From Nonlabens sp. (GTDB taxonomy: Bacteria > Bacteroidota > Bacteroidia > Flavobacteriales > Flavobacteriaceae), in NCBI GenBank assembly GCA_020630715.1, contig JAHDIQ010000012.1, positions 1 through 43,573 of the forward strand: a stretch of DNA of 43,573 nt, written 5' to 3'. This document shows positions 710 through 42,718 of this stretch, piece by piece; the stretch's first letter is position 1, and the number at the start of each line of letters is the position of its first letter. The notes below the pieces were generated by a model that did not search any database, was not told where the DNA came from, and saw only the letters and a program-made list of their open reading frames with translations. A program made the position numbers and the translations under genes.

Positions 710-2551
710 TCACATCCCATCCACAAACTCCTGAAAAACTTGTTTGTGTTTATCCAGATCTAAATCTGGTGAAATGGATACTCTAGCGATATAATCCTTA
801 TCACTTTCTTTAGTGGTTCCTTGTGTTGAGGTAGCTGGAATGGTCCAATAACAACCTTTTAATTGCCCATAACTCACACAATACTTACTTTCATCAGGAA
901 TTTGTGTGATCATCATGTTGATCAGTTTTAAATTTTGCTCTTGTTTGTAGGTTTCTCGTTCTTCTGGAGTGTTTCCTTTTGTAGGTAAATCTAGCGAAAA
1001 CACAGATGGTGTAAAACCTTGTGATGCTAGCTCTTCTGAAACAAAATTGATTTTTGCATCGGGTAAAACAGCTTCTATAAAAGTTACAAATTCTCTTGTG
1101 TTGACGTAAGCGTCAGCGATGCGCTGGTTCATAGACGGTAACTGCTCTGCTAGGATTTCATACTGCTGTGCGGTTGCCTCGTTATCGCAAGCAACTAAAT
1201 GTTTTTCAATTACTGGAACTAATGTTGCTGCTTTTTTATTCATTACGGCATATCCAGCGGTGCATTTTCCACCACTTGGGAATTTAGAACCACTAGCATA
1301 AGCAATGGCTTTAACGCTAGACAGGATATTCTCTTCTCCTAAAAAGTGCACATTAGGACAAAAAGTTTGATCCAGAATAAAAACGGGTGGCACAGCCATA
1401 GCACCAGATGGCGTTTTACGTTTTTTTGATAATGCTTCTTTTAAAGCGACCAATTCTGGAACTTCTACTCTAGGATTTGTAGGAATCTCTGCAAGAATAT
1501 AAGGAATTGCATCTTCCTGTGCGATTTGATCTAGCACCTGGTGCGTACTTTGCACCATATCATTATCACCATCTACTGGTAAATCAACGATTTGAATATT
1601 TTGATGTGCTTTAGCTATACGTCTTGCTTGATCATTAGTACCGCCATAGCAATTAGGTGGCACAACAAATTTGATCGCTTTCTCAGGATGTCTAGTTTGC
1701 GCATCATCTATCAATCCCATCATGATCGCATACTGCATGGATAAACCACTAGAAGCAAAAAGCGGTTGAGCACTGGTATTTGTTATGGAATTAATTAGTT
1801 TTTGGATGGCATTTTTATGTTGCGCTACGGCTATTCCATGCGGTGTAACTGTTTGTTGATGTATGATAGAATGTAAAACCGCATAAGCATTTGCCGGCGT
1901 CATGGCCACAGTTTCCCTGCGTCGCACATGCTGTATTGCAGGTACATAATCTTTTTGCTCATCATTAATAATGACGATGCTACCTAAATGTTGGTACGTA
2001 TAAATGTGGAAGTCGTTGTTTCGCTTTCGCGAAAGCGTAATCATTCCATCCTGTTGCTCTACATAAACGTTACTACCTTCAAAATCATTTGAGTCGTTCA
2101 CACTTGAAGCTTCAACAAGCTCAAAGTCATATCCATAAACTTCTTTTAATAGATGAACATCCATAGATTCTGGAAGTGTGTTTTTATAAATGATTCTAGT
2201 GGAAGTGCCGGCTAGTAAATTAGTACGTAATATGGCGTGAATAGGCATGGTTTGAGAGCCAAAACTAATTACTTGACTAGCGTCCAGATTCATTTCCTGT
2301 GCAATCATCCATTCTAACACACTAGATAGCGGATGTCCTAAACGGATGTAATCGTATGCTGTAGGTAATGCTTGTAGCGCAACGGTATCATAAATATCCT
2401 GACGGTATAAATTATCAAATTGGGATAAGAATTCTGACTTTGCTTGATTCTCATTATATATATCTAGACGGTGCGTGGTAAGTCGCAACCAGTCTGATGG
2501 CATGTGATTTAATACATTTTTTATATAAGTATGAAGGTGTTCACTATTCAT
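710..2551 (-). CDS. PLP-dependent enzyme of the Cys/Met metabolism type (long form, 613 aa)
   Basis: This is a fold-type I PLP enzyme. The motif YASGSKFPSGGKCTAGYAV (near residues 418-436) resembles the SxTK PLP-lysine region of cystathionine synthases/lyases, and an upstream ILDQTFCPN segment could supply the cofactor-binding Asp. At 613 residues it is much longer than the roughly 390-residue cystathionine gamma-synthase/lyase family, with about 200 extra N-terminal residues, so substrate and reaction cannot be assigned. It is monocistronic on the minus strand, preceded by the terminator of the stress-protein gene. Residues 172-177 (LSRKRN) are encoded by a copy of the palindromic repeat, in what looks like a variable loop. 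It could also be a decarboxylase-like or transferase paralogue. Confidence 0.8.
   Translation of the reverse strand: MNSEHLHTYIKNVLNHMPSDWLRLTTHRLDIYNENQAKSEFLSQFDNLYRQDIYDTVALQALPTAYDYIRLGHPLSSVLEWMIAQEMNLDASQVISFGSQTMPIHAILRTNLLAGTSTRIIYKNTLPESMDVHLLKEVYGYDFELVEASSVNDSNDFEGSNVYVEQQDGMITLSRKRNNDFHIYTYQHLGSIVIINDEQKDYVPAIQHVRRRETVAMTPANAYAVLHSIIHQQTVTPHGIAVAQHKNAIQKLINSITNTSAQPLFASSGLSMQYAIMMGLIDDAQTRHPEKAIKFVVPPNCYGGTNDQARRIAKAHQNIQIVDLPVDGDNDMVQSTHQVLDQIAQEDAIPYILAEIPTNPRVEVPELVALKEALSKKRKTPSGAMAVPPVFILDQTFCPNVHFLGEENILSSVKAIAYASGSKFPSGGKCTAGYAVMNKKAATLVPVIEKHLVACDNEATAQQYEILAEQLPSMNQRIADAYVNTREFVTFIEAVLPDAKINFVSEELASQGFTPSVFSLDLPTKGNTPEERETYKQEQNLKLINMMITQIPDESKYCVSYGQLKGCYWTIPATSTQGTTKESDKDYIARVSISPDLDLDKHKQVFQEFVDGM
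2022..2037. repeat. Iterated palindrome, copy 1 (inside PLP-enzyme gene)
   Basis: The perfect 16-bp palindrome CGCTTTCGCGAAAGCG is continued on the right by TAA. On the coding (minus) strand it is read as ACG CTT TCG CGA AAG CGA, giving TLSRKR. Confidence 0.9.
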
Positions 2552-2660
2552 ATTAAGAGCGTTCAGATTTTTGATTAAACAAAGATACTTGTTAGTTTAA
2601 GGAAATATAGTAGTCTATCGTTAAACTAGCGTTATACTGGTATAGAGCATTCGTATCACT

Positions 2661-2693
2661 AAAAAAGCCTCTACAAGAAATGTAGAGGCTTTT
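2661..2693 (-). terminator. Rho-independent terminator for the universal stress protein gene
   Basis: A 13-bp perfect stem, AAAAGCCTCTACA (2663-2675) with TGTAGAGGCTTTT (2681-2693), has a 5-base loop. On the minus strand the stem is followed by a T tract (complement of the A run from 2661). It lies 26 bp after the stop of the gene at 2719-3474. Confidence 0.85.
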
Positions 2694-2718
2694 AGAAAAT
2701 AAATCAGAGTATAAATAA

Positions 2719-3474: not shown

Positions 3475-3521
3475 ATGGGTTAGTTAAAGACCTAATTCTT
3501 AAACAGGTCTATTTCAGCGCA

Positions 3522-3554
3522 CAAAAATACTTTAAAATAGAAGTTTAAAACAAA
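3522..3554 (-). promoter_or_regulatory. Bacteroidetes-type promoter of the universal stress protein gene
   Basis: On the minus strand a TTTG box (complement of CAAA at 3551-3554) is followed after 21 bases by TATTTTTG (complement of 3522-3529). This fits the Bacteroidetes sigma-A consensus TTTG-N19-21-TAnnTTTG. The start codon lies 48 bp downstream. Confidence 0.7.
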
Positions 3555-3729
3555 TTATAACGTTTTATTAAACCTTTGTATTTGAATGAAGTAGAGGCGT
3601 ATTTTAATATTGAAAGCAGGAAGCTCAAAAGGAGCTTAAATCGCTCTACTTAAATTCCTATATTTACGTTTATAATAAATGATCAATCTTACAGTAAAAC
3701 TGTAAAGATTTCAATATATACAAATAGAA

Positions 3730-5007
3730 ATGAGCTGTAGCAGTTGTGGAACTGGCGGTAGCACGCCAGGTGGATGTAAAAATAACGGTACTTGTGGTAC
3801 TGATGGATGTAATAAGTTAACGGTTTTTGACTGGCTGTCTAATATGGAATTACCAGATGGACAGCAACTATTTAATTACGTAGAAGTACGTTTTAAAAAC
3901 AGTAGGAAAGAGTATTATAAAAATACTGAAAACCTTCAACTTAAAATAGGTGATATTGTTGCCACTCAGGCAGAAACCGGCCACGATATAGGAATGGTAA
4001 CGCTTACGGGTGAACTAGTACGCATCCAACTCAAAAAAAGAAAAATCAAATACGATGTAGATGATTTTCCTAAAATTTATCGCATTGCATCCCAGACTGA
4101 TGTCGATAAATGGAAGAATGCACGTGAGAAGGAGGAACCTATGAAGGTGCGCGCAAGACAAATCGCTATACGATTAGATTTACAGATGAAAATATCTGAT
4201 ATTGAATTTCAAGGCGACGCTTCTAAAGCGACTTTTTACTATACCGCAGAACAGCGCGTGGACTTTCGTCAATTGATCAGAGAATACGCTACAGAATTTA
4301 AGACTCGTATAGAAATGCGCCAGATAGGACTGCGACAAGAAGCCGCTAGATTAGGTGGAATAGGTTCATGTGGTAGGGAATTATGCTGTTCTACCTGGTT
4401 AACAGATTTTAGATCTGTAACTACCAGTGCTGCTAGATATCAGAATTTATCTTTAAATCCTCAAAAACTAGCTGGACAATGCGGTAAACTAAAGTGTTGT
4501 CTTAATTATGAGCTGGACTCGTACATGGATGCGCTTAAAGATTTCCCAAAACAAAACCAAAAACTGTACACGGATAAAGGAACTGCGGTATGCCAAAAGA
4601 TCGATATTTTTAAAGGCATCATGTGGTATTGCTATGAAGGTGAATGGATGAACTGGCATACGTTAACGACTGCGCAAGTTCACGAAATTGTTGCAAAAAA
4701 TAAGGCAAAAGAAAACGTAGCTAGTATAGAAGAATACGCTGCAGAACATATTGTTGAAGAGAAAGTAAACTTTGAAAACGTGGTAGGTCAGGACAGTTTA
4801 ACCAGATTTGACCAGCCAGTCACAAAAAATAAAAAGCGTAAAAAACGACGTAATAATAACCGTTCTGGTAAACCACAATCAAAAGGAAATTCAAATAACA
4901 ATAATCAAAACAAAAAACCAGCACAGGCAACAAGTGGATCAAAACCACAGCGCAACAAACGCAGGAATAACAATAACAATAACAAACCACCTAAAAAGAA
5001 CGACTAG
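3730..5007 (+). CDS. PSP1-domain protein, RicT/YaaT-like, 425 aa
   Basis: The Cys-rich N terminus (MSCSSCGTGG, Cys at about 3, 6, 16, 22, 26) precedes a PSP1 domain with paired cysteine motifs GSCGRELCCSTW (about 213-224) and QCGKLKCCLNYELD (about 250-263). In Bacillus RicT these motifs belong to the Fe-S-bearing RicA/F/T complex involved in RNA maturation. The last 70 residues are a K/N/R-rich low-complexity tail, likely disordered and possibly nucleic-acid binding. It heads a run in which gldH starts on its last stop-codon base (TAGTG), so translation is probably coupled. That placement suggests co-expression with envelope genes. Its role in this organism is not established by the sequence. 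Confidence 0.88.
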   Translation: MSCSSCGTGGSTPGGCKNNGTCGTDGCNKLTVFDWLSNMELPDGQQLFNYVEVRFKNSRKEYYKNTENLQLKIGDIVATQAETGHDIGMVTLTGELVRIQLKKRKIKYDVDDFPKIYRIASQTDVDKWKNAREKEEPMKVRARQIAIRLDLQMKISDIEFQGDASKATFYYTAEQRVDFRQLIREYATEFKTRIEMRQIGLRQEAARLGGIGSCGRELCCSTWLTDFRSVTTSAARYQNLSLNPQKLAGQCGKLKCCLNYELDSYMDALKDFPKQNQKLYTDKGTAVCQKIDIFKGIMWYCYEGEWMNWHTLTTAQVHEIVAKNKAKENVASIEEYAAEHIVEEKVNFENVVGQDSLTRFDQPVTKNKKRKKRRNNNRSGKPQSKGNSNNNNQNKKPAQATSGSKPQRNKRRNNNNNNKPPKKND

Positions 5008-5501
5008 TGAGAACAGTACTCATGCTCTTTTTAATGATCGTCCTAGTTTCTTGTGATCAGAATCTGGTAGACTCGCAAAGCTTTGAATTTAGCAATGCAA
5101 AGTGGCCTATAGATACAGCACCGATTTTTGAAATCACGCCACCAGACACCTTGAATTCCTATGATTTATTTTTGAATTTGCGCAATTCAAAGGAATATGC
5201 TTATAGTAACCTATTTTTAATCAGCGAGATAAAATTTCCACAAGGAAAAATCGTTACAGATACATTGGAGTATAAAATGGCAACACCACAAGGAAATTAT
5301 CTAGGAAGTTCTAGAGGCAGTGTGGTAGAAAATAAATTATGGTTGAAAGAAGGAGTACGCTTTCGCGAAAGCGGCACCTATCAACTTACCGTAAGACACA
5401 TCATGAGAGATGCACGATCTGTAAAAGGAATGACGTATTTAAATGGTGTGCTAGACATAGGATATAGCATTGAAAAACCCATGAATAATGGCGACGAATA
5501 A
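5007..5501 (+). CDS. gldH: Gliding motility lipoprotein GldH
   Basis: The 164-residue lipoprotein has a signal peptide ending in the lipobox LVSC (Cys16). The body (FSNAKWPIDTAPIFEITPPDTLNSYDLFLNLRN) and the C-terminal TYQLTVRHIMRDARSVKGMTYLNGVLDIG match my recollection of GldH, a lipoprotein required for gliding and the associated T9SS in Flavobacterium. The start is a GTG that overlaps the preceding TAG by one base; an in-frame ATG at 5022 would leave a very short signal peptide. It overlaps the PBP1A gene by 14 bp. Residues 118-122 (RFRES) come from a copy of the palindromic repeat. Confidence 0.88.
   Translation: MRTVLMLFLMIVLVSCDQNLVDSQSFEFSNAKWPIDTAPIFEITPPDTLNSYDLFLNLRNSKEYAYSNLFLISEIKFPQGKIVTDTLEYKMATPQGNYLGSSRGSVVENKLWLKEGVRFRESGTYQLTVRHIMRDARSVKGMTYLNGVLDIGYSIEKPMNNGDE
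5358..5373. repeat. Iterated palindrome, copy 2 (inside gldH)
   Basis: Perfect CGCTTTCGCGAAAGCG, read in frame as CGC TTT CGC GAA AGC (RFRES). Confidence 0.9.
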
Positions 5502-7863: not shown

Positions 7864-8574
7864 ATGATAAGTAGGTTGCAATTAGATCATATTCTTTTTC
7901 TAGATATAGAAACCGTTCCACAACAGGAGCAGTTTACAGATCTAGAAGATCTAGATCAACAATTGTATGCAGATAAAACAAAATACCAGCGTAAAGATGA
8001 TTTCACTCCAGCAGCGTTTTATGATCGTGCAGGCATTTGGGCCGAGTTTGGTAAAATCGTATGTATTAGTGTAGGTTATTTTGTAGATCGTTCTCAACGA
8101 CAGTTTAGAGTAACCAGTTTTACAGGTGATGAGGTACAATTACTCACTGATTTTGCTACCTTACTGGATGAACATTTTTCAAAACGATCGCATCTGTTGT
8201 GTGCTCATAATGGAAAGGAATTTGACTTTCCTTATATCGCTAGACGCATGATTATTCTAGGTTTAGATCTTCCAGTGAAACTAAATTTATTTGGTAAAAA
8301 GCCTTGGGAAATTCCACATTTAGATACCATGGAGTTGTGGAAGTTTGGAGATTATAAACACTTTACCTCACTTAAATTAATGACGCGCATCTTGAACATT
8401 CCGTCGCCTAAAGATGATATCGATGGATCTCAAGTGCGTGATGTATATTATATGGAAAATGACATAGAACGTATCGCGCGCTATTGCGAGAAAGATGTCA
8501 TTGCAGTTGCCCAGATCATGTTGCGTTTGCGCAATGAAGACTTACTTACTGATGAGCATATCGTCTACAAATAA
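7864..8574 (+). CDS. DnaQ-like 3'-5' exonuclease (PolB-type exo2 family), 236 aa
   Basis: The stand-alone DEDD exonuclease shows Exo I FLDIETVP (Asp and Glu ligands, near residues 14-17), Exo II HNGKEFDFPYIARRM (Asp near 121) and Exo III YCEKDVIAVAQIML (Tyr-x3-Asp, the DEDDy subtype). The length and motif layout fit the family often annotated as predicted 3'-5' exonuclease related to the exonuclease domain of PolB. It starts 3 bp after the PBP1A stop, and its 3' end overlaps the ABC transporter start by about 23 bp. A DNA or RNA proofreading/repair role is inferred from the family only. Confidence 0.87.
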   Translation: MISRLQLDHILFLDIETVPQQEQFTDLEDLDQQLYADKTKYQRKDDFTPAAFYDRAGIWAEFGKIVCISVGYFVDRSQRQFRVTSFTGDEVQLLTDFATLLDEHFSKRSHLLCAHNGKEFDFPYIARRMIILGLDLPVKLNLFGKKPWEIPHLDTMELWKFGDYKHFTSLKLMTRILNIPSPKDDIDGSQVRDVYYMENDIERIARYCEKDVIAVAQIMLRLRNEDLLTDEHIVYK

Positions 8575-10246
8575 TTATCTAGTTACTGTAAGAAACCTAT
8601 CGGTATCTTTTAAAAATGGTGCGTCTGTTTCTCAAGTATTACGCGATGTTTCTTACCATATTCAACCTAATGAACTCCTAGCCGTAGTAGGTGAATCGGG
8701 TAGTGGCAAATCTGTCACTGCAAAAGTATTGATGGGATTATTACCAGATAGCGCACAGATCACAGCAAATGAGTTATTAGTAATAGATCAGTCAATTTTA
8801 AAGTATGATGGTGGTGAGTGGTCTCGCTTTCGCGGAAGCGAAATAGCCATGATCTTTCAAGAACCTATGAGCTCTTTAAATCCTACCATCACTTGTGGTG
8901 ATCAAGTAGCTGAAATCCTGAAGCAACATACAGTATTAAGTTCAAAAGAAATTCACAAGGAAGTTTTAGCGCTATTTGAAAAGGTAAAATTACCTACTCC
9001 AGACATTACTTATGACAAGTATCCTCACGAGATCAGCGGTGGACAAATGCAACGTGTAATGATTTCGATGGCTGTGGCTTGTAAACCTAAACTACTGATC
9101 GCAGATGAACCTACTACAGCGCTAGACGTAACGGTACAACAAGAGATTATTTTACTGTTAAAAGAATTACAGGAAGAATATGGAATGAGCGTGTTGTTTA
9201 TCTCTCATGACCTATCGTTAGTGCGTTCTATGGCAAATCGTGTACTGGTCATGTATCAAGGTAGGATTGTAGAACAGGGAAGACCAGATGATTTATTTAA
9301 TCATCCTAAAGAACAGTATACTAAAGCACTGATAGCCGCGCGACCAGATACTGCTGTTAGACTAAAGGAATTACCTACCATTAAAGATTTTATGGAGGAT
9401 ATGCCTAGTGCAGCGGTTGTTACCGCTCAAGATCGTGCGATTGCTCATGAAAAAATTTATAGTAAACCGCCTATTTTAGAGGTGCAACATGTAATCAAAG
9501 ATTATCCTTTAAAAAAATCACTTTTTAAACCACAGGAATATTTTAGAGCATTAGATGATGTGAGTTTAAACATCTATCCACAAGAGTCTTTAGGACTAGT
9601 AGGTGAAAGTGGATGCGGTAAAAGCACCTTGGGTAATTGTATTCTAGGACTTAAAAGAGTTACTAGTGGTCGCATTCTATATAAAGGTCAAAATATCACA
9701 AATTTAAAAGGCAGCACGATGCGTTCCTTACGTAAAGAATTACAAATCATATTTCAAGATCCGTTTGCGAGTTTAAATCCTCGTATTACTATAGGTGAAG
9801 CGATTACAGAACCTATGAAATGGCATGGAATAGGAAGTAGTGATGCAGATCGTAAAGAAAAAGTTTTTGAACTTCTAGAACGTGTAGGATTATCTAGAGA
9901 TCAATACAATCGATATCCGCATGAGTTTAGTGGTGGACAGCGACAGCGTATAGGAATTGCACGTACGGTGGCATTAGAACCACGATTAATTGTATGCGAT
10001 GAATCTGTTAGCGCATTAGATATTTCTGTACAAGCACAGGTGCTCAATCTACTTAACGAATTAAAATCAGTGTATCATTTTTCTTATTTATTCATTAGCC
10101 ATGACCTAGCAGTGGTAAAATATTTTTGTGATCGGGTGGTTGTAATGAACAAAGGTCGCATTGAAGAATACGGTGAGGCTGATTCGGTTTATGAAAATCC
10201 GCAGAGTGATTATACTAAGAAGTTGATAGCGGCGATACCTGGTTAA
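8552..10246 (+). CDS. Fused oligopeptide/dipeptide-type ABC transporter ATPase (DppD-DppF arrangement)
   Basis: Two complete ATPase domains lie in one chain. Domain 1 has Walker A GESGSGKS, signature ISGGQMQRV and Walker B LLIADEPTTALD. Domain 2 has GESGCGKS, FSGGQRQRI and LIVCDESVSALD. Each carries the extended C-terminal region typical of Opp/Dpp ATPases (YTKALIAARPD; YTKKLIAAIPG). I chose ATG 8552 (MSISSTNNYLVTVRNLSVSF) because upstream in-frame codons (from 8495) give residues unlike the family. The start lies inside the end of the exonuclease gene. No permease or binding-protein genes are adjacent, so the partners are elsewhere and the substrate is unknown. Confidence 0.92.
   Translation: MSISSTNNYLVTVRNLSVSFKNGASVSQVLRDVSYHIQPNELLAVVGESGSGKSVTAKVLMGLLPDSAQITANELLVIDQSILKYDGGEWSRFRGSEIAMIFQEPMSSLNPTITCGDQVAEILKQHTVLSSKEIHKEVLALFEKVKLPTPDITYDKYPHEISGGQMQRVMISMAVACKPKLLIADEPTTALDVTVQQEIILLLKELQEEYGMSVLFISHDLSLVRSMANRVLVMYQGRIVEQGRPDDLFNHPKEQYTKALIAARPDTAVRLKELPTIKDFMEDMPSAAVVTAQDRAIAHEKIYSKPPILEVQHVIKDYPLKKSLFKPQEYFRALDDVSLNIYPQESLGLVGESGCGKSTLGNCILGLKRVTSGRILYKGQNITNLKGSTMRSLRKELQIIFQDPFASLNPRITIGEAITEPMKWHGIGSSDADRKEKVFELLERVGLSRDQYNRYPHEFSGGQRQRIGIARTVALEPRLIVCDESVSALDISVQAQVLNLLNELKSVYHFSYLFISHDLAVVKYFCDRVVVMNKGRIEEYGEADSVYENPQSDYTKKLIAAIPG
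8825..8840. repeat. Iterated palindrome, copy 3, one mismatch (inside ABC ATPase gene)
   Basis: CGCTTTCGCGGAAGCG differs by one base (A to G) from the other copies and encodes RFRGS, in the same frame as in gldH. It lies in the variable segment after the first Walker A. Confidence 0.75.
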
Positions 10247-10454: not shown

Positions 10455-11441
10455 CTACTTTTCTAACTGTCCGGTAAGTAACCAGGCACCAGAATAGCCT
10501 AACTTACGTAAGCGATATAATTCATTGATCGCATCGTTGCGTTCTACAAAACTGCCAAAAGCCACATTATGAAGCCCATATTTATTCACGCCTATACGGC
10601 TAGCATCAATTCCTATTTTTTGCAGTTGTGCTACTTTTTTATCTGCATTTGATGCGTCTCTAAAAGCGCCAGCAACGATATGGTAATTCTTTATTTGTGG
10701 AGCAACTTCTAACTCTATCGCCGGTAGCGGACTAGGTATCGCAATACTTGCTTCTTGAATTTGTGCTTCTAATTTTTCTTTGGCTAGTTCTTCAACTGCA
10801 ATCTGGTGATCAGTTTGTACGCGATCATACTGTGTTTTTCCACCATAACCTAAGGCAGCAACGGCAAGCAGTCCTACTGCGGCATAACCTAACCATGCTC
10901 TGCGTCTAGGTTGCGGTTCTTCATCTTCTCTAGTAAGTGGAATCACTGGTGTTTCTTCTGCTGTAACAGACTCTTCCATAGCAACAACTGCAGGAACTTC
11001 TAGTGGTTGCTCTATAACAGCTCTATCTACCGCAAAGGTCTCATGCGCTGTAAGACCAAAAGCCTCTGGCAAATAATTCACCACATACATAGGTGTGAAC
11101 TGCAAGGATTGTTCTTCATTACGTGTAAAACGACCTACTTTATGAATGGTAACCTGACCTTTTTTGTCTATTTCGCTATCCAGAAAGCGCACATAATTAC
11201 GGATTTGCTGTACTGCATCTGCATAAGGGATTTTTTCTACACTAGCGACGTATTGTGCTAACAAACCGTCATTTTGCTGGATTTGAGCATTAAAACTCAA
11301 TCCTTTTTTAGGCGGATAAATCGTATGACTGCTCTCAAAATGTTGTGCAGGCACACGTCTAGAAAGTAGTGCTCCATAACCTGGAATAACTACACAATCG
11401 TGACGATACAATAAATCTGATATGTACTGACTTATAAGCAT
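10455..11441 (-). CDS. Envelope protein with bacterial CCDC81-type HU-like N-terminal domains and a C-terminal SPOR domain
   Basis: The 328-aa protein starts MLISQYISDLLYRHDCVVIPGYGALL, then PPKKGLSFNAQIQQNDGLLAQYVA and GQVTIHKVGRFTRNEE. These resemble the paired HU-like domains of the bacterial CCDC81 family, which precede SPOR in many Bacteroidetes proteins. A membrane helix (about 186-203, YAAVGLLAVAALGYGG) separates them from a periplasmic linker and a SPOR domain (about 253-325, NYHIVAGAFRDASNADKKV...VAFGSFVERNDAINEL). SPOR domains bind denuded glycan strands at the septum. The topology would place the HU-like part in the cytoplasm, so it could link a DNA- or protein-binding domain to the division site (inference). 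Confidence 0.88.
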   Translation of the reverse strand: MLISQYISDLLYRHDCVVIPGYGALLSRRVPAQHFESSHTIYPPKKGLSFNAQIQQNDGLLAQYVASVEKIPYADAVQQIRNYVRFLDSEIDKKGQVTIHKVGRFTRNEEQSLQFTPMYVVNYLPEAFGLTAHETFAVDRAVIEQPLEVPAVVAMEESVTAEETPVIPLTREDEEPQPRRRAWLGYAAVGLLAVAALGYGGKTQYDRVQTDHQIAVEELAKEKLEAQIQEASIAIPSPLPAIELEVAPQIKNYHIVAGAFRDASNADKKVAQLQKIGIDASRIGVNKYGLHNVAFGSFVERNDAINELYRLRKLGYSGAWLLTGQLEK

Positions 11442-11654: not shown

Positions 11655-11808
11655 AACCCATTCTCCAGTCCTTAGTTTACAATATATAACCGCAAATTAC
11701 GAGCGCATCGTAGTAATCTGTCATGTTCATCTTCTCTGTTCCGCGTTAAAAAATTCTAGTAAGCTTGGTCAGGTGAGTAGGCTGGTCTTATATTGTGATG
11801 CTGTATAA

Positions 11809-11830
11809 TTACGCTTTCGCGAAAGCGTAA
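11809..11830. repeat. Iterated palindrome, copy 4, full 22-bp form (intergenic)
   Basis: A perfect 22-bp palindrome: arm TTACGCTTTCG followed by its exact reverse complement. It lies 29 bp before the aminopeptidase start codon. Confidence 0.92.
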
Positions 11831-11859
11831 TAACCAAAACCACTAAACTATCATAATAC

Positions 11860-13152
11860 ATGAAATACAATCCTATTAATCCAGCACTTTTTATTAAAAA
11901 CCGAAGCAATTTTATGGCGCAAATGAAGCCGTCTAGTCTTGCTGTTTTTAATTCAAACGATATTTTTAAAACAGGTGCAGATAGTACGATGCCGTTTAAA
12001 CAACATCGCGATATTTTTTATTTAAGTGGCGCAGATCAAGAAGATACGATTCTAGTATTGTTTCCAGACTGTCCAGATCCTGCGCATCGTGAAGTGCTTT
12101 TTGTGACAGAGACTAATGAGCATATCGCGATCTGGGAAGGCGAGAAACTGACCAAAGAAAAAGCGACAGAAGTTTCTGGAATCCAGACGATTTACTGGTT
12201 AAAGGATTTTGACAAGAAGTTTTTTGAGATGATGACGCAGTGTGATACGGTGTATTTTAATACAAATGAGCATTACCGTCAGGCTGTAGAAATGGAAACT
12301 CGTGAAGATCGTTTTATCAAAAAATGTAAAGCGCAATATCCGGCGCATTCTTATGCTAAAAGTGCACCTATTTTACAACGACTACGTGCGGTAAAAGATC
12401 CTATAGAAATTGATTTATTACAGCAGGCTTGTGATATTACAAATGCTGGTTTCCGTAGAGTATTGAATTTTGTGAAACCTGGTGTGCAGGAATATGAAAT
12501 AGAGGCAGAATACTTACATGAGTTTATACGTAGACGCAGTGATGGATTTGCTTACACTCCTATTATTGCTAGTGGTGGCAATGCAAATGTGTTACATTAT
12601 ATAGAAAACAACCAGCCATGTCATGATGGTGATTTAATCCTGATGGATGTAGGCGCGCAGTATGCAAATTATGCTAGTGATATGTCGCGTACCATACCTG
12701 TAAACGGCCGTTTTACAGACCGCCAAAAAGCAGTTTACAATGCGGTGTTACGAGTGAAAAACGAAGCCACAAAAATGCTAGTTCCAGGAACATTGTGGAA
12801 AGAATATCACGTTGAGGTAGGGAAATTAATGACTAGTGAATTACTAGGATTAGGCCTACTAGATCAAGCCGATGTTCAACATGAGAATCCAGACTGGCCA
12901 GCGTATAAAAAATATTTTATGCACGGTACATCGCACCACATGGGATTAGACACGCATGATTATGGGATTTTATGGGAACCTATGCAAGCTGGAAATGTCT
13001 TTACCGTTGAACCTGGGATTTACTTACCGGATGAAGGTTTTGGCATACGACTAGAAGATGATGTGGTGATTCAGGAATCTGGTGAACCGTTCAATCTAAT
13101 GCGTGATATTCCTATAGAAGTAGATGAGATTGAGACGTTGATGAATAGTTAA
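11860..13152 (+). CDS. pepP: Xaa-Pro aminopeptidase (aminopeptidase P, M24B family)
   Basis: At 430 aa this has the usual length of PepP. The N-terminal non-catalytic domain (about 1-170) is followed by a pita-bread domain with the metal ligands in order: LILMDVGAQYANYASDMSRT (two Asp), HGTSHHMGLDTHD (His), FTVEPGIYL (Glu) and GFGIRLEDDVVI (Glu). It hydrolyses the N-terminal residue of peptides when proline is second, in the cytoplasm, with two Mn ions. The gene is probably monocistronic; a full-length palindromic repeat lies in its leader or promoter region. Confidence 0.93.
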   Translation: MKYNPINPALFIKNRSNFMAQMKPSSLAVFNSNDIFKTGADSTMPFKQHRDIFYLSGADQEDTILVLFPDCPDPAHREVLFVTETNEHIAIWEGEKLTKEKATEVSGIQTIYWLKDFDKKFFEMMTQCDTVYFNTNEHYRQAVEMETREDRFIKKCKAQYPAHSYAKSAPILQRLRAVKDPIEIDLLQQACDITNAGFRRVLNFVKPGVQEYEIEAEYLHEFIRRRSDGFAYTPIIASGGNANVLHYIENNQPCHDGDLILMDVGAQYANYASDMSRTIPVNGRFTDRQKAVYNAVLRVKNEATKMLVPGTLWKEYHVEVGKLMTSELLGLGLLDQADVQHENPDWPAYKKYFMHGTSHHMGLDTHDYGILWEPMQAGNVFTVEPGIYLPDEGFGIRLEDDVVIQESGEPFNLMRDIPIEVDEIETLMNS

Positions 13153-24392: not shown

Positions 24393-24406
24393 ACCTTGCT
24401 TGATCA

Positions 24407-24414
24407 CAAATTTA
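24407..24414 (-). promoter_or_regulatory. -7 promoter box (TAAATTTG) for hemA
   Basis: Complement of CAAATTTA. It ends 15 bases before ATG 24392 and overlaps the codons of the alternative upstream start, so it decides the hemA start. The -33 box is not clear. Confidence 0.55.
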
Positions 24415-24447
24415 AGCACGACTCAATCGTTAAAATGTCGCTAGAAG

Positions 24448-24515: not shown

Positions 24516-24537
24516 TTACGCTTTCGCGAAAGCGTAA
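24516..24537. repeat. Iterated palindrome, copy 6, full 22-bp form (leader of AraC-family gene)
   Basis: Perfect 22-bp palindrome with arms TTACGCTTTCG, identical to copies at 11809 and 42697. It ends 37 bp before the start codon. Confidence 0.92.
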
Positions 24538-24574: not shown

Positions 24575-25450
24575 ATGGAAAATATCGCTATAGGTGCTGC
24601 AGAAGTAACCTTAATCGAAAAAGGATTTCAAGTAGTTAGATTAAAGAACGATACGGATGAAGTAGCGCATTTTGAACACCATGTGGATCGTAGTTTTATT
24701 CAATTTCATTTTTGTTTAAAAGGAACAACTGGGCTTGCTTTTAATGAAGGTTCGTATCGATTAAATCTCAGTGAGCAAAGTAGTTACTTGCTGTATAACC
24801 CTTCAAAAGATTTACCGCTTAATCTAGAAATACAAGCAAATACCTGGTTTATTGCGGTACTGGTATCGATTAAAAAATTCCATTCACTATTCTCACCTGA
24901 TGCAACACATGTGAGTTTTTTAAGTGATGAGAATAAGGATAAAAAATACTATGTAGATGGAAGCATTTCTCCATCCATGGCGGTAGCGTTGCACCAGTTA
25001 ATGAATTACAATTTAAACGATGCGATTAAACGTTTGTACTTTAAAGGCAAGGCTTACGAGCTCATGTCTCTATATTTTCATCAACCAGAAGATGCAGATG
25101 TGGAAGCCTGCCCATTTCTAGTAGACGAGCAAAATATGCGCAAGATTAAAGAGGCAAAAGAGATTATCATTAACCGCATGATAGATCCACCATCATTAAA
25201 TGATCTCGCACTAGAAATAGGATTATCACTTAAAAAGTTAAAGGAAGGTTTTAAAGAAGTGTATGGCGATACCGTTTACGGATTTTTACTAGATCATAAA
25301 ATGGAATACGCACGTCAATTACTAGATAGTGGCCAGCACAATGTTAATGAAGTAGGATCTCTAGTAGGCTACAGCACGGCCAGTCATTTTATTAGTGCCT
25401 TTAAAAAGAAATATGGCACCACGCCTAAGAAGTATTTGATGGGAAGTTGA
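24575..25450 (+). CDS. AraC-family transcriptional regulator
   Basis: The 291-aa protein has a cupin-like N-terminal sensing part (about 1-180, including RSFIQFHFCLKGTTGLAFNEG and YRLNLSEQSSYLLYNPSKDLPL). The C-terminal double HTH (about 195-291) reads MIDPPSLNDLALEIGLSLKKLKEGFKEVYGDTVYGFLLDHKMEYARQLL and VNEVGSLVGYSTASHFISAFKKKYGTTPKKYL, the AraC consensus. It is divergent from hemA-hemC, with a 16-bp inverted repeat in between, so control of haem synthesis by this regulator is a reasonable hypothesis. The effector is unknown. Confidence 0.92.
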   Translation: MENIAIGAAEVTLIEKGFQVVRLKNDTDEVAHFEHHVDRSFIQFHFCLKGTTGLAFNEGSYRLNLSEQSSYLLYNPSKDLPLNLEIQANTWFIAVLVSIKKFHSLFSPDATHVSFLSDENKDKKYYVDGSISPSMAVALHQLMNYNLNDAIKRLYFKGKAYELMSLYFHQPEDADVEACPFLVDEQNMRKIKEAKEIIINRMIDPPSLNDLALEIGLSLKKLKEGFKEVYGDTVYGFLLDHKMEYARQLLDSGQHNVNEVGSLVGYSTASHFISAFKKKYGTTPKKYLMGS

Positions 25451-28163: not shown

Positions 28164-29087
28164 TTAAAAGAAGATATCTCGTGCTACGCGATAGGTATTT
28201 GCATGTGCTTCAATGATCAATTTGATTTCTGGAGAATAACCACCGCCCATGCTTACTTGCACAGGTATGCGGTGATGTTGTTTTGATTTTGCTTTCGCGA
28301 AAGCGGATAAAGCATGCGCATCACGTTTTTTACAACCTTCTTGGGTTAGCCCTAGTTTACCTAATTTATCTGTTGCGACTACATCCACACCAGCTAGATA
28401 AAAGATAAAATCAGGTTGTTCTTGCGCAATTAGATCTGGAAGCACATGATCTAATTCCTGTAAGTATTCCTGATCTGTAGTGCCATCAGGCATCGCGATA
28501 TCTAGATCAGATTGTTCTTTTTTAAACGGATAGTTACTAGCTCCATGCATGGAAAAGGTGAAAACGCTATCATCGTTTTGAAAAATTGATGCCGTTCCGT
28601 TGCCTTGGTGTACATCCAGATCTACGATAAGGATTTTTTCTGCTAGTCTATGATGTTGTAAGTATCGCGCAGCGATCGCTTGATCATTTAATAGACAAAA
28701 CGCTTCGCCATGATCTGTATAGGCATGATGAGTTCCACCAGCTATGTTCATGGCAATACCATGATCTAGAGCTTTTACACAGCCTTCAATCGTTCCCTGA
28801 GCAATTCTTAATTCACGTTCTACCAGTTGATCACTAATTGGGAATCCTAGTTTTCTTGCAGCACGACGTTCTAGGGATAGTGTCTTTAAATCCTTAAGAT
28901 ACTGATCAGTATGCACGCGTAATACATCCACATCATCACATAATTTACTAGGTTCAAAAAAGTCAGATGGACTAGCGGTACCGTCTAAAAGTAACTGTTG
29001 TGGCAGCAGTTCATACTTTATCATCGGGAATCGATGTCCGTCTGGTAATGGATGTTTATAAATGGGATGAAATGCGATAGGGAACAA
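28164..29087 (-). CDS. Histone deacetylase superfamily (acetoin utilisation/acetylpolyamine amidohydrolase-like) protein
   Basis: The 307-aa protein has the core zinc hydrolase motifs: AGGTHHAYTDHGEAFCLLND (His-His dyad region), ILIVDLDVHQGNGTASIF (D-x-H ligands) and FYLAGVDVVATDKLGKL (third Asp ligand and active-site loop), then MGGGYSPEI near the end. Bacterial members deacetylate small molecules or proteins; the substrate is not deducible. Residues AFAKA (near 263-267) are encoded by a palindromic repeat copy. The start MFPIAFHPIYKHPLP fits the family's first beta strand. Confidence 0.93.
   Translation of the reverse strand: MFPIAFHPIYKHPLPDGHRFPMIKYELLPQQLLLDGTASPSDFFEPSKLCDDVDVLRVHTDQYLKDLKTLSLERRAARKLGFPISDQLVERELRIAQGTIEGCVKALDHGIAMNIAGGTHHAYTDHGEAFCLLNDQAIAARYLQHHRLAEKILIVDLDVHQGNGTASIFQNDDSVFTFSMHGASNYPFKKEQSDLDIAMPDGTTDQEYLQELDHVLPDLIAQEQPDFIFYLAGVDVVATDKLGKLGLTQEGCKKRDAHALSAFAKAKSKQHHRIPVQVSMGGGYSPEIKLIIEAHANTYRVARDIFF
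28291..28304. repeat. Iterated palindrome, copy 7, 14-bp core (inside HDAC-like gene)
   Basis: Perfect core GCTTTCGCGAAAGC; the outer left base is T not C. It is read GCT TTC GCG AAA GCA on the coding strand (AFAKA), like hemC and the hydrolase. Confidence 0.88.
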
Positions 29088-30350: not shown

Positions 30351-30374
30351 ATAGGTACTGCCTATTGTATCTTG
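30351..30374 (+). promoter_or_regulatory. Promoter and putative TetR site of the alpha/beta hydrolase
   Basis: ATAGG-TACTG-CCTAT (30351-30365) is an inverted repeat. CCTATTGTATCTT (30361-30373) repeats the tetR-promoter sequence CCTATTGGTATCTT (complement strand, 30266-30279) with one deletion. TATCTTGC (30368-30375) takes the place of the -7 box, six bases before ATG 30380. Confidence 0.5.
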
Positions 30375-30379
30375 CGCAA

Positions 30380-31129
30380 ATGAAACGTATGCATTATACA
30401 TTTGAAAACTCAGGTAAGCCTGTAGTTTTATTGCTTCACGGCTTTTTAGGAAGTAGGAATCAATGGGATGTGATGTTGCCTTATTTTCATGGATATGATG
30501 TGTTACAATTAGAGCTGCCTGGTCATGGTGATAGTCCTAGTTGTGATCATTATTCCATCGATGATTTGGCTCATGAAATTCATCAATTACTTACTAGTAT
30601 TGAGGTTGACAAAGTCCATTTTGTAAGTCATAGTATGGGTGGTTATGTAGGTTGCGCTTTCGCGAAAGCGTATCCACATCAACTTCACAGTCTTACCTTG
30701 ATCAATAGCATTGCAGGAGCAGATACAGTGGCAAAAAAGCAATTGCGTAATCGTGCTATTCAATTAATAGATCGTTTTCAAGAAACCTATGTTTCCATGG
30801 CGATTTCTAATTTATTTGCTAAAAAGGAACACGAGCTTTATAACTCACAAATCGCTGTAATGAAGCAACAGGCTAAAATAATTTCACTTGCATCAGTGCT
30901 AGCTGCGTTGCGAGCTATGCGCGATAGACGATCAACACTAGATGATGTTAGAGAATTAAATCTTCCTATTACTTATATCTACGGAAGCCTAGACACAGTT
31001 ATTGATCCTCAAATCATTGAAAAAGAGATTTTTAAATTAAAAGCAACTGGCATTAATGTTGAAGCTGGACACATGTTATTAATCACGCACCCGTTAAAAG
31101 TAATTCAAAACATGCATTTCATCGAATAA
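30380..31129 (+). CDS. Alpha/beta hydrolase (MenH/esterase-like)
   Basis: The 249-aa protein begins MKRMHYTFENSGKPVVLLLHGFLGS, with the oxyanion motif HGFLGS. SHSMGG holds nucleophile Ser85, the acid is in YIYGSLDTVIDP, and the His lies in VEAGHMLLITHP. It resembles small hydrolases such as MenH-type or carboxylesterases; the substrate is unknown. ATG 30380 was chosen over an upstream TTG (30365) because the promoter box lies there. Residues AFAKA after the nucleophile elbow (GGYVGCAFAKAYPHQL) come from a palindromic repeat copy. It is divergent from tetR and probably its target. Confidence 0.88.
   Translation: MKRMHYTFENSGKPVVLLLHGFLGSRNQWDVMLPYFHGYDVLQLELPGHGDSPSCDHYSIDDLAHEIHQLLTSIEVDKVHFVSHSMGGYVGCAFAKAYPHQLHSLTLINSIAGADTVAKKQLRNRAIQLIDRFQETYVSMAISNLFAKKEHELYNSQIAVMKQQAKIISLASVLAALRAMRDRRSTLDDVRELNLPITYIYGSLDTVIDPQIIEKEIFKLKATGINVEAGHMLLITHPLKVIQNMHFIE
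30655..30670. repeat. Iterated palindrome, copy 8 (inside hydrolase gene)
   Basis: Perfect CGCTTTCGCGAAAGCG, read GCT TTC GCG AAA GCG (AFAKA) in the helix behind the nucleophile. Confidence 0.9.
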
Positions 31130-35587: not shown

Positions 35588-35592
35588 CAGCT

Positions 35593-36371: not shown

Positions 36372-36387
36372 CGCTTTCGCGAAAGCG
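36372..36387. repeat. Iterated palindrome, copy 9 (between sufC and sufD)
   Basis: Perfect 16-bp CGCTTTCGCGAAAGCG. The 22-bp form has a single arm mismatch (TTT on the left instead of TTA). It occupies the only long gap inside the suf run and would form a hairpin between sufC and sufD. Confidence 0.9.
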
Positions 36388-36403: not shown

Positions 36404-37717
36404 ATGAGTTTTAAAGATAAAATACTTTCTTCTTTCATCGCCTTAGAAAATGAGGTAGATACAGAAACCTATGCACATAGCCTGCGTAACGAGGCTTTGG
36501 GTAATTTTGAGAAATTAGGTGTTCCACAGCGTAAAGAAGAAGCATATAAATACACGTCATTAAAATCTGTTTTTAATAAAGATTATAGCTTGTTTCCTAA
36601 AAAGGACACAGCCATTGAGTATTCTGATATAAAGCGTTTTTTAATCCATGAAATTGATGCATATCGCGTGATATTTGTAGATGGAATTTACAGCTCGCAC
36701 TTATCACAAACTACACATGATAAATTTGATGTGTGTTTAATGAGTAGTGCGCTTAATAATCCTAAATATAATAGTGTTATTGAAACCTATTATAACAAAT
36801 TAGCTTCTCAAGACGGATTAAGTTCCTTAAACACAGCATTTGCTCGTGAAGGAGCCTACATCCATATAGGTAAAAACATCGCTGTTGAAAAACCTATTGA
36901 GATCGTTTATTTCTCTACAGGAAATGAAAGAGCGTTGATGACACAACCACGTAATCTGGTAGTAGTAGGAGAGAATTCTCAAGTACAAATCATAGAACGC
37001 CATCAAAGTTTAAGCGATAACGAGGTGCTTACAAACGCGGTAACAGAGATTTTTGCAGCGCAACGCGCTATGGTGGATTACTATAAAATCCAGAACGATA
37101 AATTAAATGCCAGTTTACTAGATCATACTAGTGTAGATCAACGTACGTCTAGTGAGGTACGATTACATACGTTCTCTTTTGGAGGTAGTTTAACGCGTAA
37201 TAATCTAAACTTTTATCAGAATGGAGAACACTGTAATTCTTTACTTAATGGTGTTACCATTATTGAAGGAAAACAGCATGTAGATCATTCTACACTCGTG
37301 CACCATTCACAACCTAATTGCGAGAGTTATCAGGAATACAAACAGATTTTTGATGATCGTGCGGTAGGTGTATTTAATGGTAAAGTACTGGTGGATAAAA
37401 TTGCACAAAAGATCAATGCATTCCAGCAAAATAATAATATTCTAGTTAGTGATAAAGCAACTATTAATGCAAAGCCACAATTAGAAATTTTTGCAGATGA
37501 TGTAAGATGTTCCCATGGTTGTACTATAGGTCAACTAGATGAAGAAGCCTTGTTTTACATGCAATCTCGTGGAATAGGTAAAAAAGAAGCTCGAGCTTTA
37601 TTAATGTTTGCATTTGCAAATAGCGTATTAGAAAGCGTGAAAATTCCAGAAATCAAGTCTAGAATCACAAAGTTAATTGCAAAGAAGCTACAAGTAGACA
37701 TAGGATTTGATCTATAA
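36404..37717 (+). CDS. sufD: Fe-S cluster scaffold subunit SufD
   Basis: The 437-aa protein shares the SufBD fold: SFKDKILSSFIALENEVDTETYAHS at the start, PRNLVVVGENSQVQIIERHQS, and VDHSTLVHHSQPNCESYQEYKQIFDDRAVGVFNGKVLVD. The tail has VRCSHGCTIGQLDEEALFYMQSRGIGKKEAR. SufD pairs with SufB and SufC2. Transcription stops at a strong terminator (37740-37774), so sufS and sufE are not in this transcript. Confidence 0.96.
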   Translation: MSFKDKILSSFIALENEVDTETYAHSLRNEALGNFEKLGVPQRKEEAYKYTSLKSVFNKDYSLFPKKDTAIEYSDIKRFLIHEIDAYRVIFVDGIYSSHLSQTTHDKFDVCLMSSALNNPKYNSVIETYYNKLASQDGLSSLNTAFAREGAYIHIGKNIAVEKPIEIVYFSTGNERALMTQPRNLVVVGENSQVQIIERHQSLSDNEVLTNAVTEIFAAQRAMVDYYKIQNDKLNASLLDHTSVDQRTSSEVRLHTFSFGGSLTRNNLNFYQNGEHCNSLLNGVTIIEGKQHVDHSTLVHHSQPNCESYQEYKQIFDDRAVGVFNGKVLVDKIAQKINAFQQNNNILVSDKATINAKPQLEIFADDVRCSHGCTIGQLDEEALFYMQSRGIGKKEARALLMFAFANSVLESVKIPEIKSRITKLIAKKLQVDIGFDL

Positions 37718-37774: not shown

Positions 37775-37775
37775 G

Positions 37776-41334: not shown

Positions 41335-41347
41335 ATAAGTTTGTGCC

Positions 41348-42685
41348 GTGAAAAACGGCATCAATATTAACACAAAGGATATTTTAAAGCTCGCTTTTCC
41401 TGCAATCATTGCTGGAATTGCAGAGCCTTTAATTAGTCTTACAGATGTTGCTGTTATAGGTAACATGTATAATAACGCGGTTGAAGGATTACTAGCTGTA
41501 GGATTAGTAGGATCTTTTTTAAGTGCTATTATCTGGACACTAGCTCAAACTAAAACCTCTTTAAGTTCTATAGTTTCAAAAGCGGTAGGAGATCATACCA
41601 CTCAAAGTTTAAAACCTTTAATTCCACAAGCAATCTGGCTTAATATCGCCCTAGGAGTTCTAATTTATGCGGTTACAGCACCACTAGCTACTTATATTTT
41701 TACCTTATATAATGCGACAGATCATGTATTAGAATTATCAGTAGGATATTATCAAATACGTGCGATAGGATTTCCTATCACCTTGAGCGCTTTTGCTATT
41801 TTTGGAGTATTTAGAGGATTGCAAAACACTTCATGGGCTATGATCGCTAGTTTGTGTGGTGCGCTGGTGAATGTCGTTCTGGATTATGTTCTAGTTTACG
41901 GCGTTTCAGATTTAATTCCTTCTTATGGAGTTATGGGCGCTGCCTATGCAAGTCTAGTGGCTCAATTAGTGATGTTGTTAATTGCTGTGTTTTATCTCTA
42001 TCATAAAACACCATTCAGCCTTTCTTTAAGTAGTAAAGTAATCCATCCAAAACTTAAAAATCATATAGCATTAGCCGCAAATTTCTTTTTACGCACTGTA
42101 GCGATTAACCTTGCCATCTTTTTATCCTATCGTTATGCATCAGGATATGGAGAAACTTACGGCGCAGCTCATGCTATTATGATGAATATTTGGTTGTTTT
42201 TCTCCTTTTTTATTGACGGATTTGCAAATGCTGGTAACGCCATAGGTGGTAAATTACTAGGTTCTAGAGATGCTATTTCCCTTAGATATCTAGCTAAAAA
42301 AACCACTACCTATGGAGTCGTAGTTGCCATTACTTTAGCATTATTGTGCGCTGGATTATACACTTTCATAGGCAATCAGTTTACAGATGATGAGGTAGTT
42401 TTAGCCTTATTTCTCAACGTATTCTGGATGGTACTCGTGATGCAACCGGTAAATGCGGTAGCATTTGTTTTTGACGGAATTTTTAAAGGTTGGGGCGAGG
42501 CAAGTTACCTGCGTAATTTGCTGTTCGTACTTACGCTAGGTGTTTTCATTCCTACCTTATTACTTGCAGATTTTCTGGGATGGAAGTTACATGCGATTTG
42601 GCTTGCGTTCACCTTTTGGATGATCGGTAGGGCAGTGGTGCTTTATTTAAAGTTTCAGAATAGAGTGACTAGTATGGATCAGTAA
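41348..42685 (+). CDS. MATE-family efflux transporter (DinF-like)
   Basis: The 445-aa protein has about 12 hydrophobic segments and the two-fold MATE pattern: LAFPAIIAGIAEPLISLTDVAVIGN near the start and NFFLRTVAINLAIFLSYRYASGYGETYGAAHAI in the second half. MATE proteins expel drugs or metabolites using Na+ or H+. The start is a GTG 13 bp after the T9SS gene stop, and there is no terminator between, so the two may be transcribed together. Confidence 0.92.
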   Translation: MKNGININTKDILKLAFPAIIAGIAEPLISLTDVAVIGNMYNNAVEGLLAVGLVGSFLSAIIWTLAQTKTSLSSIVSKAVGDHTTQSLKPLIPQAIWLNIALGVLIYAVTAPLATYIFTLYNATDHVLELSVGYYQIRAIGFPITLSAFAIFGVFRGLQNTSWAMIASLCGALVNVVLDYVLVYGVSDLIPSYGVMGAAYASLVAQLVMLLIAVFYLYHKTPFSLSLSSKVIHPKLKNHIALAANFFLRTVAINLAIFLSYRYASGYGETYGAAHAIMMNIWLFFSFFIDGFANAGNAIGGKLLGSRDAISLRYLAKKTTTYGVVVAITLALLCAGLYTFIGNQFTDDEVVLALFLNVFWMVLVMQPVNAVAFVFDGIFKGWGEASYLRNLLFVLTLGVFIPTLLLADFLGWKLHAIWLAFTFWMIGRAVVLYLKFQNRVTSMDQ

Positions 42686-42696
42686 AATGGTGATAA

Positions 42697-42718
42697 TTAC
42701 GCTTTCGCGAAAGCGTAA
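42697..42718. repeat. Iterated palindrome, copy 10, full 22-bp form (intergenic)
   Basis: Perfect 22-bp palindrome with arms TTACGCTTTCG, 11 bp after the MATE gene stop. It might serve as a terminator-like hairpin, but no T run follows it. Confidence 0.92.

Follow-up and report, generated by a model that had tools for sequence, protein, structure and literature searches.

The window analysed here (the whole stretch of DNA, 43,573 nt) carries ten copies of a palindrome with a 14-bp core, starting at positions 2023, 5359, 8826, 11813, 22235, 24520, 28291, 30656, 36373 and 42701. A mismatch-tolerant search returned exactly these ten matches at two or fewer mismatches, nine of them exact and one (at 8826) with a single mismatch, just as the initial annotation had counted them; the positions it listed are correct, being where the 16-bp form (CGC...GCG) starts or, at 28291, where the core starts. 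For comparison, 100 dinucleotide shuffles of the window gave a mean of 0.10 matches and a maximum of 2.

Overlap with open reading frames (ORFs) places six copies inside ORFs and four between them, and the earlier observation that genic copies are reduced to 14-16 bp holds, with the copy at 8826 broken at one core base (coordinates of copies are given without strand). The genic copies are read in the LSRK frame once, as RFRES or RFRGS twice and as AFAKA three times. The copy at 2022-2037 (perfect over 16 bp) lies in the LSRK frame of an ORF at 710-2551 (-), that at 5358-5373 (perfect over 16 bp) in the RFRES frame of an ORF at 5007-5501 (+), and the copy with one core mismatch (GCTTTCGCGGAAGC, 8826-8839) in an ABC transporter ATPase ORF (8495-10246, +). 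The three AFAKA copies are found in ORFs for porphobilinogen deaminase (22165-23121, -; copy at 22234-22249, perfect over 16 bp and exact in 5/7 aligned relatives), a histone-deacetylase-like protein (28164-29087, -; copy at 28291-28304, 14 bp, exact in 11/11) and an alpha/beta hydrolase (30365-31129, +; copy at 30655-30670, perfect over 16 bp, exact in 3/4). The intergenic copies have the longer arms that had been described for them. At 11808-11831, between divergent ORFs (10455-11441, - and 11860-13152, +), the palindrome is perfect over 24 bp; at 24516-24537, between hemA (23124-24419, -) and the divergently oriented gene of an AraC-type regulator (24575-25450, +), it is perfect over 22 bp and exact in 14/18 aligned relatives, and at 42697-42718, 3' of a MATE transporter ORF (41348-42685, +), it is again perfect over 22 bp. 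The copy at 36372-36387, in a 58-bp gap 5' of sufD (36404-37717, +), is perfect over 16 bp, and its 22-bp form contains one mismatch.

Genomic range and shape of the motif

The source genome (2.98 Mb) contains 609 exact cores and none of the reversed control, a genome-wide count that the initial annotation had proposed as a test for selection and that favours it. All 23 genomes of the genus that we examined are rich in the palindrome (288-857 copies each), at a density of one per 4-9 kb. In a sample of 397 genomes of the family, this richness is confined to the genus and to two further genomes, which belong to two different genera. Exact copies outnumber those with one mismatch by 46:8, 97:16, 42:11 and 42:9, indicating a strong consensus. 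Among named phage and plasmid records 6 and 3, respectively, contain the palindrome, each with an E of about 9-10, and these were taken as chance. Literature searches on the 14-mer core, the inner 10-mer or palindromes in Nonlabens gave no report of this palindrome in the extracts returned, and a search on highly iterated palindromes in Flavobacteri- likewise gave none. The flanks, even spacing, narrow distribution and uptake-sequence likeness described in this work are additions to the initial annotation.

The 14-mer is the core of a longer symmetric motif, consisting of a palindrome of ~24 bp and C-poor, T-rich flanks that reach to about 30-50 bp. T-rich blocks flank genic and intergenic copies alike, both strands are rich in G and T but poor in C on the 5' side of the site, and intergenic copies prefer T at every third base (-4, -7, -10 and -13). 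A 3-base periodicity of T across the far flanks, seen in mixed data, was abandoned, with strictly intergenic flanks keeping only the -14 to -4 portion. The flanks also show dialects at position -2, with T in 239/353 half-sites of genome G006 and A in 39/79 of G000 (chi-square p 1e-12, half-sites counted as independent), and the flank motif is weaker in genome G211, where C occupies -1 in only 49/84 half-sites. G211 and G227 are copy-rich, and g144, which groups as the sister of G211, is copy-poor. In 23/47 two-mismatch variants both mismatches fall in one arm, which is the chance share, and the variants are therefore uninformative on half-sites.

Conservation, origin and gene context

Conservation at orthologous sites in relatives, the other test put forward at the outset, also favours selection, as the palindrome is exactly conserved in 500/592 orthologous places vs 74/3343 for control 14-mers. 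Gaps near the site occur at similar frequency in relatives with the site (104/402) and without it (28/96), with no clear excess in the latter, and residues are substituted in place; copies arise by substitution in place, not insertion. Many near-identical copies could suggest that the palindrome is a mobile element (REP-, MITE- or RPE-like) spread through insertion, but the flanks form a graded motif rather than a copied unit, spacing is even, and the origin of sites by substitution led us to reject an insertion element (REP/MITE), so that this explanation is left with barely any probability. In proteins, 118 AFAKA peptides are observed vs 0.43 expected, and the exact core encodes 110/118 of them where codon usage predicts 0.9%. 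Selection or drive that acts on the DNA itself maintains the palindrome, and DNA-level drive has visibly altered the proteome, with AFAKA peptides gained through substitution.

Copies are more evenly spaced than chance, with coefficients of variation (CV) of 0.47, 0.47, 0.69 and 0.82 in four genomes vs about 0.92-0.97 in simulations; this is weakest in G006 (P 0.04 on CV), where copies counted in 37 stretches, each of 20 kb, have a dispersion index of 0.44. Over the same 37 G006 stretches, which cover about a quarter of a chromosome whose origin is unmapped, copy density has no regional trend. The two longest site-free gaps of a first 400-kb G006 sample contain an integrase or a defence-like cluster. 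About 4/10 copies are intergenic and the majority genic, and density is about six-fold higher in non-coding (0.81-1.17 per kb) than in coding DNA (0.145 per kb). Intergenic density per kb is similar between convergent (0.89), co-directional (0.81) and divergent genes (1.17), and an apparent scarcity between convergent genes (8/93 with the first gene calls) vanished with ATG-only gene calls and length normalisation. Close pairs of sites were considered as markers of regulator genes and discarded, as three pairs adjoin ordinary genes (translations judged by eye). Their neighbours, named by reading translations, include cysteine-synthase-like and glycine-dehydrogenase-like genes.

A role in transcription termination, in regulator binding or as an RNA hairpin would agree with the palindromic form and with the intergenic share of copies. 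However, the orientation-independent density and the genic majority led us to reject the terminator and regulator readings, and mirror-position mismatches are found in 6/47 two-mismatch sites where chance gives about 3.6, making stem compensation weak at best; we regard this family of explanations as highly improbable.

Methylation, recombination and chromosome organisation

The initial annotation had likened the palindrome to HIP1 and had also considered a binding site for a nucleoid, segregation or methylation protein. Similar to HIP1 of cyanobacteria (GCGATCGC) and the alternate HIPs, the palindrome is highly iterated, lies within and between genes and is confined to some lineages, and to this extent the comparison is apt, but the present motif is longer with flanks, rarer, strongly regular in spacing and without a matching PF00145 or PF01555 methylase, and the methylation side of the comparison is not supported. 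If the palindrome were an epiphenomenon of the HIP1 type, its sites would be made and maintained by an orphan methyltransferase together with methyl-directed repair, and besides the outward resemblance to HIP1 as excerpted from PMC4390886, some decayed copies carry symmetric C to T changes (GCTTTTGCAAAAGC). Against this, the C5-methylase family PF00145 and the amino-methylase family PF01555 do not track the palindrome, each occurring in 12/21 copy-rich vs 8/17 copy-poor genomes. Both are absent from copy-rich G009, G010 and G022 (a result for these two families, among methylases that also include PF02086, type I and Eco57I-type), which counts against a HIP1-like methylation model. Moreover, of 78 occurrences of the inner TCGCGA 46 lie in cores, and outside cores it is close to its iid expectation (26 expected); the constrained sequence of about 24 bp plus flanks goes far beyond a methylase site. 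We therefore consider a methylation origin very doubtful.

Phage-like contigs contain palindrome sites, while no exact copy was found in 385 kb from 22 relatives of one such contig; given sites on phage-like contigs, a function inside the cell fits too. One such function is a bidirectional Chi-like site, at which an AddAB-type end-processing enzyme would halt from either side of the palindrome, with the G/T-rich strand 5' of it as the would-be 3' tail favouring RecA loading. Chi sites are short, directional, lineage-specific sequences, and the palindrome resembles them in its lineage-specific sequence, its G/T-rich strand and a spacing near that of Chi in E. coli, but it is long and palindromic, with an extended motif that probably far exceeds the length an enzyme tunnel could read. 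The C-poor, G/T-rich strands with their periodic intergenic T, the preference of RecA for TGG repeats (in an excerpt of PMC3763553), a PF12705 protein of AddB-like size in 15/15 genomes tested, the lack of any match to the RecC family PF04257 in 38 genomes and the site-bearing phage-like contigs all agree with such a site. However, in a comparison of one ~770-aa AddB-like fragment from each of 15 genomes (deep-branch tree support being weak) the 7 copy-rich genomes did not group and 0 of 822 columns were diagnostic. On balance a Chi-like site seems improbable to us.

A further possibility, unlikely but with more in its favour, is a site for nucleoid organisation, segregation or topology, in which a cytoplasmic dimeric or DNA-wrapping protein (a NAP, an SMC-loading factor or a type II topoisomerase with a strong site) would need a station every few kb on resident DNA. 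The length and symmetry of the motif, flank preferences that extend to about 50 bp away from the core, the very even spacing and even density over the sampled G006 stretches, the indifference to gene orientation, and the presence of sites on phage-like contigs next to the lack of exact copies in the 22 relatives are all consistent with this. The parS, Noc-binding, SlmA and matS sites are palindromes for chromosome-organising proteins, present in tens of copies and regionally clustered. The present motif is likewise palindromic, as proposed for protein binding here, but occurs in hundreds of copies that are evenly spread, and the lack of a regional trend in G006 (origin unmapped) differs from the Noc, SlmA and MatP patterns. 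No candidate protein was found, and the narrow distribution of the site would require a narrowly distributed protein for a house-keeping role. The protein-binding part (nucleoid, segregation) of the initial proposal is plausible, and its methylation part is not supported. A recombination protein or one that organises the chromosome may bind the palindrome; should it prove to be a site of this type, it would reveal an unknown genome-wide DNA-binding system.

A putative self-DNA uptake signal

We tentatively propose that the palindrome forms the core of a label for self-DNA similar in kind to uptake signals, a function suggested by its pattern, which appears to be best matched among known systems by DNA uptake signal sequences. 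A surface or periplasmic receptor of the natural-transformation apparatus would bind the palindrome as a dimer or wrap it, the site reading identically from either strand, and site-bearing fragments would be preferentially imported and recombined. Because of this, alleles with the site would keep replacing alleles without it, and even spacing would follow if one site per several kb suffices per imported fragment and close extras gain little. ComEC is present in 39/39 genomes tested (22/22 copy-rich and 17 copy-poor) and therefore does not discriminate between them. The analysis found no such receptor. Riemerella, described as Flavobacteriaceae, is naturally competent with pilus homologues not detected, and R. 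columbina favours its own DNA, according to portions of PMC8459023 and PMC7965970, and no uptake signal sequences in Bacteroidota were reported in the literature searched.

Metal-resistance islands of copy-poor genera bear sites at orthologous places; these islands, the sites on phage-like contigs and the weaker flank motif of G211 count against an uptake signal. It is possible, and we say so with caution, that the palindrome is a further, separately evolved palindromic self-DNA uptake code, the first in Bacteroidota, and that mobile DNA is labelled by it as well; metal-resistance islands and phage-like DNA once resident in these hosts would then carry the label as a record of past hosts, and the label may trace gene flow between genera. 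If the palindrome is an uptake code, it would, to judge from the literature searched, have no precedent in Bacteroidota, and it would belong to a group for which competence without recognised pili and self-preference have been reported with no signal known. Such a code would allow the origin of uptake specificity to be tested in an independent lineage, with the motif as bait for the receptor.

In excerpts of PMC1626085, Haemophilus USS and Neisseria DUS are described as more regularly spaced than random, with an unusually strong consensus and a non-coding preference, and as common to members of a genus or family; individual USS are stable over long times, are not insertions and are flanked by AT-rich segments. 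Known uptake sequences are stated in part of PMC1939737 to be non-palindromic. The present motif differs from USS and DUS in that it is palindromic, about 24 bp long, T-rich on both flanks and found in another phylum, with a density of one per 4-9 kb rather than about one per kb. Uptake sequences are defined by the preferential uptake of fragments that bear them, and the palindrome is here likened to this class without being assigned to it. Similar to the USS of Pasteurellaceae and the DUS of Neisseriaceae, however, it occurs in hundreds of copies with a strong consensus, even spacing and a preference for non-coding DNA, originates by substitution, persists as long-lived orthologous copies and takes slightly different forms in related species, and with USS alone it shares T-rich flanks.

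Distribution of the palindrome in Nonlabens and its relatives

We recovered in the window the ten copies claimed by the initial annotation, nine exact matches to the 14-bp core GCTTTCGCGAAAGC and one with a single mismatch, compared with a mean of 0.10 copies and a maximum of 2 in 100 dinucleotide-shuffled windows. The coordinates it gave proved correct as starts of the 16-bp form, re-reading of the window sequence verified its arm lengths, and its division into six genic and four intergenic positions agreed with the ORFs. Counted genome-wide and in related species, as that annotation had proposed, the core occurs 609 times in the 17 contigs (2.98 Mb) of the window's genome versus 0 for the reversed control, and 288-857 times per genome in 23/23 genomes of the genus, the lowest count coming from a 78% complete genome. 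In a family sample (397 genomes, 237 genera) at least one copy was present in 80 genomes, and only the four sampled genus members and two genomes of other genera, G211 (408 copies) and G227 (857), were rich in it; the other 74 carried 1-19 copies each. A class sample of 396 genomes held the 16-mer in 7, with 448 copies in the window's own genome and 1-2 in the remaining six. Except for AT-only sequences in two, no other repeated palindromes of at least 12 bp were found in ~20-kb samples of 16 copy-poor genomes. An unrooted PBP1A and RicT tree clusters G227 with G211 and the copy-poor genome G165 (99% support), away from the genus, a grouping compatible with either gain or loss of the palindrome.

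Conservation and anatomy of the motif

Our comparisons show that selection or drive acts on a long symmetric DNA motif. When the surroundings of hemA (23124-24419, minus strand), a window gene beside an intergenic copy, were compared in 21 genomes (the window and 20 fetched regions), 568 of 673 pairs of aligned copies were exact; in alignments of at most 80% identity the figure was 500/592 versus 74/3343 for control 14-mers 30-60 bp away, counts that are not independent of one another and in which local alignment may bias exactness toward matched sites; the conservation at orthologous sites on which the initial annotation had made its case for selection depend is thus observed. Sorted by orthology, the 95 copies of this region make 30 groups, of which 17 contain one copy only, so that there is turnover too, although some singles may reflect region ends or missing alignment. 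AFAKA, the peptide encoded by the core in one reading frame, was counted 118 times across the 411,511 codons of a genus sample versus 0.43 expected from composition, and the exact core underlies 110 of these versus 0.9% from codon usage. Relatives without a site have residues substituted in place, and gaps near the site showed no clear excess (28/96 relatives without it, 104/402 with it, one further pair with its site beyond the alignment being left out). Base constraint outside the core was scored in 46 own-genome copies and 97 from the genome G006, where C stands at -1 in 79/92 and 184/194 half-sites (one arm plus flank), respectively, followed outward by A or T, by TT and next by A; on either strand the sequence 5' of the site is poor in C and rich in T and G out to ~30 bp. 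Among 185 strictly intergenic half-flanks from the genus and G227, the T fraction is 0.57 at -4, -7, -10 and -13 versus 0.34-0.38 at intervening positions, T is enriched again between about -24 and -34 and weakly so near -48, and genic flanks have T-rich blocks resembling these. The flank preference varies from species to species: among half-sites with C at -1, the base at -2 is T in 239/353 of G006, A in 39/79 of genome G000 and A or C in 59/70 of G227, and the G211 motif is looser (C at -1 in 49/84 half-sites). In 47 two-mismatch variants both mismatches lie in one arm in 23 and at mirror positions in 6, close to chance (~22 and 3.6), so that these variants speak neither for nor against a hairpin. 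Some copies, among them the orthologue of window 22235 in L181, a stretch of genome G003, have decayed to GCTTTTGCAAAAGC, two symmetric changes that leave it palindromic; the tally of variants has this form four times.

Spacing, site-free gaps and mobile DNA

Mean spacing was 4.1-6.7 kb in samples of G000, G227, G211 and G006, with coefficients of variation of 0.47, 0.47, 0.69 and 0.82 versus a simulated 0.92-0.97 (P <0.001, <0.001, 0.019 and 0.041), and spacings below 1.5 kb numbered 1, 2, 1 and 10 versus 10.9, 11.3, 7.4 and 28.9 in simulations. Over 37 G006 stretches of 20 kb the dispersion index of counts was 0.44 and no regional trend was obvious. Copies per kb were 0.145 in genes and 0.89, 0.81 and 1.17 in convergent, co-directional and divergent intergenic regions (simple ORF calls, regions of 20-1500 bp), so that transcription does not explain placement; of 223 copies assigned by an earlier gene call, 130 were genic and 93 intergenic. 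The 24-bp palindrome at 11808 of the window has as divergent neighbour an HU-CCDC81 and SPOR domain protein (10455-11441). In the first 400-kb sample of G006, we scanned 9 of the 35 ORFs that lie within its two longest gaps. One gap contains a phage-type integrase and an ORC-CDC6-like protein (L210:13094-14293 and L211:1928-3718), and the other (L218:9201-18810), likely a defence or mobile island, an Eco57I-type methylase, two DUF3800 proteins, a Piwi-domain (Argonaute-like) protein and a DUF3987/primase-like protein; these contents make it probable that both gaps are foreign DNA. We took 10 stretches with clustered copies from 7 of the 74 low-count genomes, 9 of which stretches (L143 being the exception) share parts mutually at 66-95% identity and four of which hold a copy pair 933 bp apart, and in two the proteins include a CopA-type ATPase, a copper-resistance multicopper oxidase, a CusA/CzcA pump and a Cd-type ATPase. 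Related metal-resistance islands with the palindrome (L137-L142, L144-L146) span several copy-poor genera. With a score above 1.7 (the 99th percentile for random positions in the own genome), 22/28 copies of the clustered stretches have the flank pattern of the host, and the islands look as if derived from copy-rich hosts. Among the IMG/VR matches listed (at least 120 stretches), 29/133 copies scored above 1.7, near-duplicates counted in, and 15 chosen records, several of them near-duplicates, carry 2-7 copies each. Of 20 proteins scanned against PHROG, drawn from nine of these records and eleven loci within them, 17 matched, including portal, capsid, tape-measure, terminase, baseplate, primase and transposase families; four loci (L059, L068, L098, L100) gave just unknown families or a methyltransferase. 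Relatives found for the portal protein were near-copies only, the search with the phage transposase returned only itself, and the primase-like protein had 22 relatives (37-48% identity) with 0 exact copies in their 385 kb. One 38-kb phage-like record (L060, L055, L038) has a phage transposase and a baseplate hub protein, and of the three copies that it carries one sits close to the centre (19822 of 38324). We read site-bearing mobile DNA as having acquired its label while in putative copy-rich hosts.

Candidate readers and comparison with known systems

We infer that a machine reads the palindrome. The C5-methylase family PF00145 was found in 12/21 copy-rich and 8/17 copy-poor genomes, as was PF01555, and neither was found in G009, G010 and G022, three of the copy-rich genomes searched. 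Among the possible readings, a site that organises the chromosome ranks second and is in our judgement rather unlikely, and a Chi-like site working in both directions ranks third and seems improbable. An AddB-like protein was present in 15/15 genomes tested, with no signature of copy-rich genomes among these 15, and the RecC family PF04257 had 0 matches in 38 genomes. ComEC was present in 39/39 genomes, which permits uptake and does not discriminate copy-rich from copy-poor. Riemerella, which the papers cited here place in the Flavobacteriaceae, is competent, and homologues of pilus proteins were not detected in it (PMC8459023); R. columbina favours its own DNA, its k-mers having been counted only up to 10 bp, with AT-rich ones ranking highest (PMC7965970). 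In H. influenzae, T-rich tracts adjoin the core of the consensus and copies lie ~1 kb apart (PMC1939737 and PMC7811141). From USS (Pasteurellaceae) and DUS (Neisseriaceae) the present motif differs in its palindromy, length and lower density. For both, Redfield and colleagues (PMC1626085) describe copies spaced more evenly than at random, an exceptionally strong consensus, a bias to non-coding DNA alongside numerous coding copies, and occurrence common to a genus or family, and for USS also stable single sites, AT-rich flanks and a non-insertional origin shown by a gap test of like kind to ours; the palindrome shares every feature listed there. Because of this match, while HIP1 differs from it in having a methylase link (PMC4390886), we tentatively rank first, at somewhat short of an even chance, that the palindrome may be an uptake-signal sequence.
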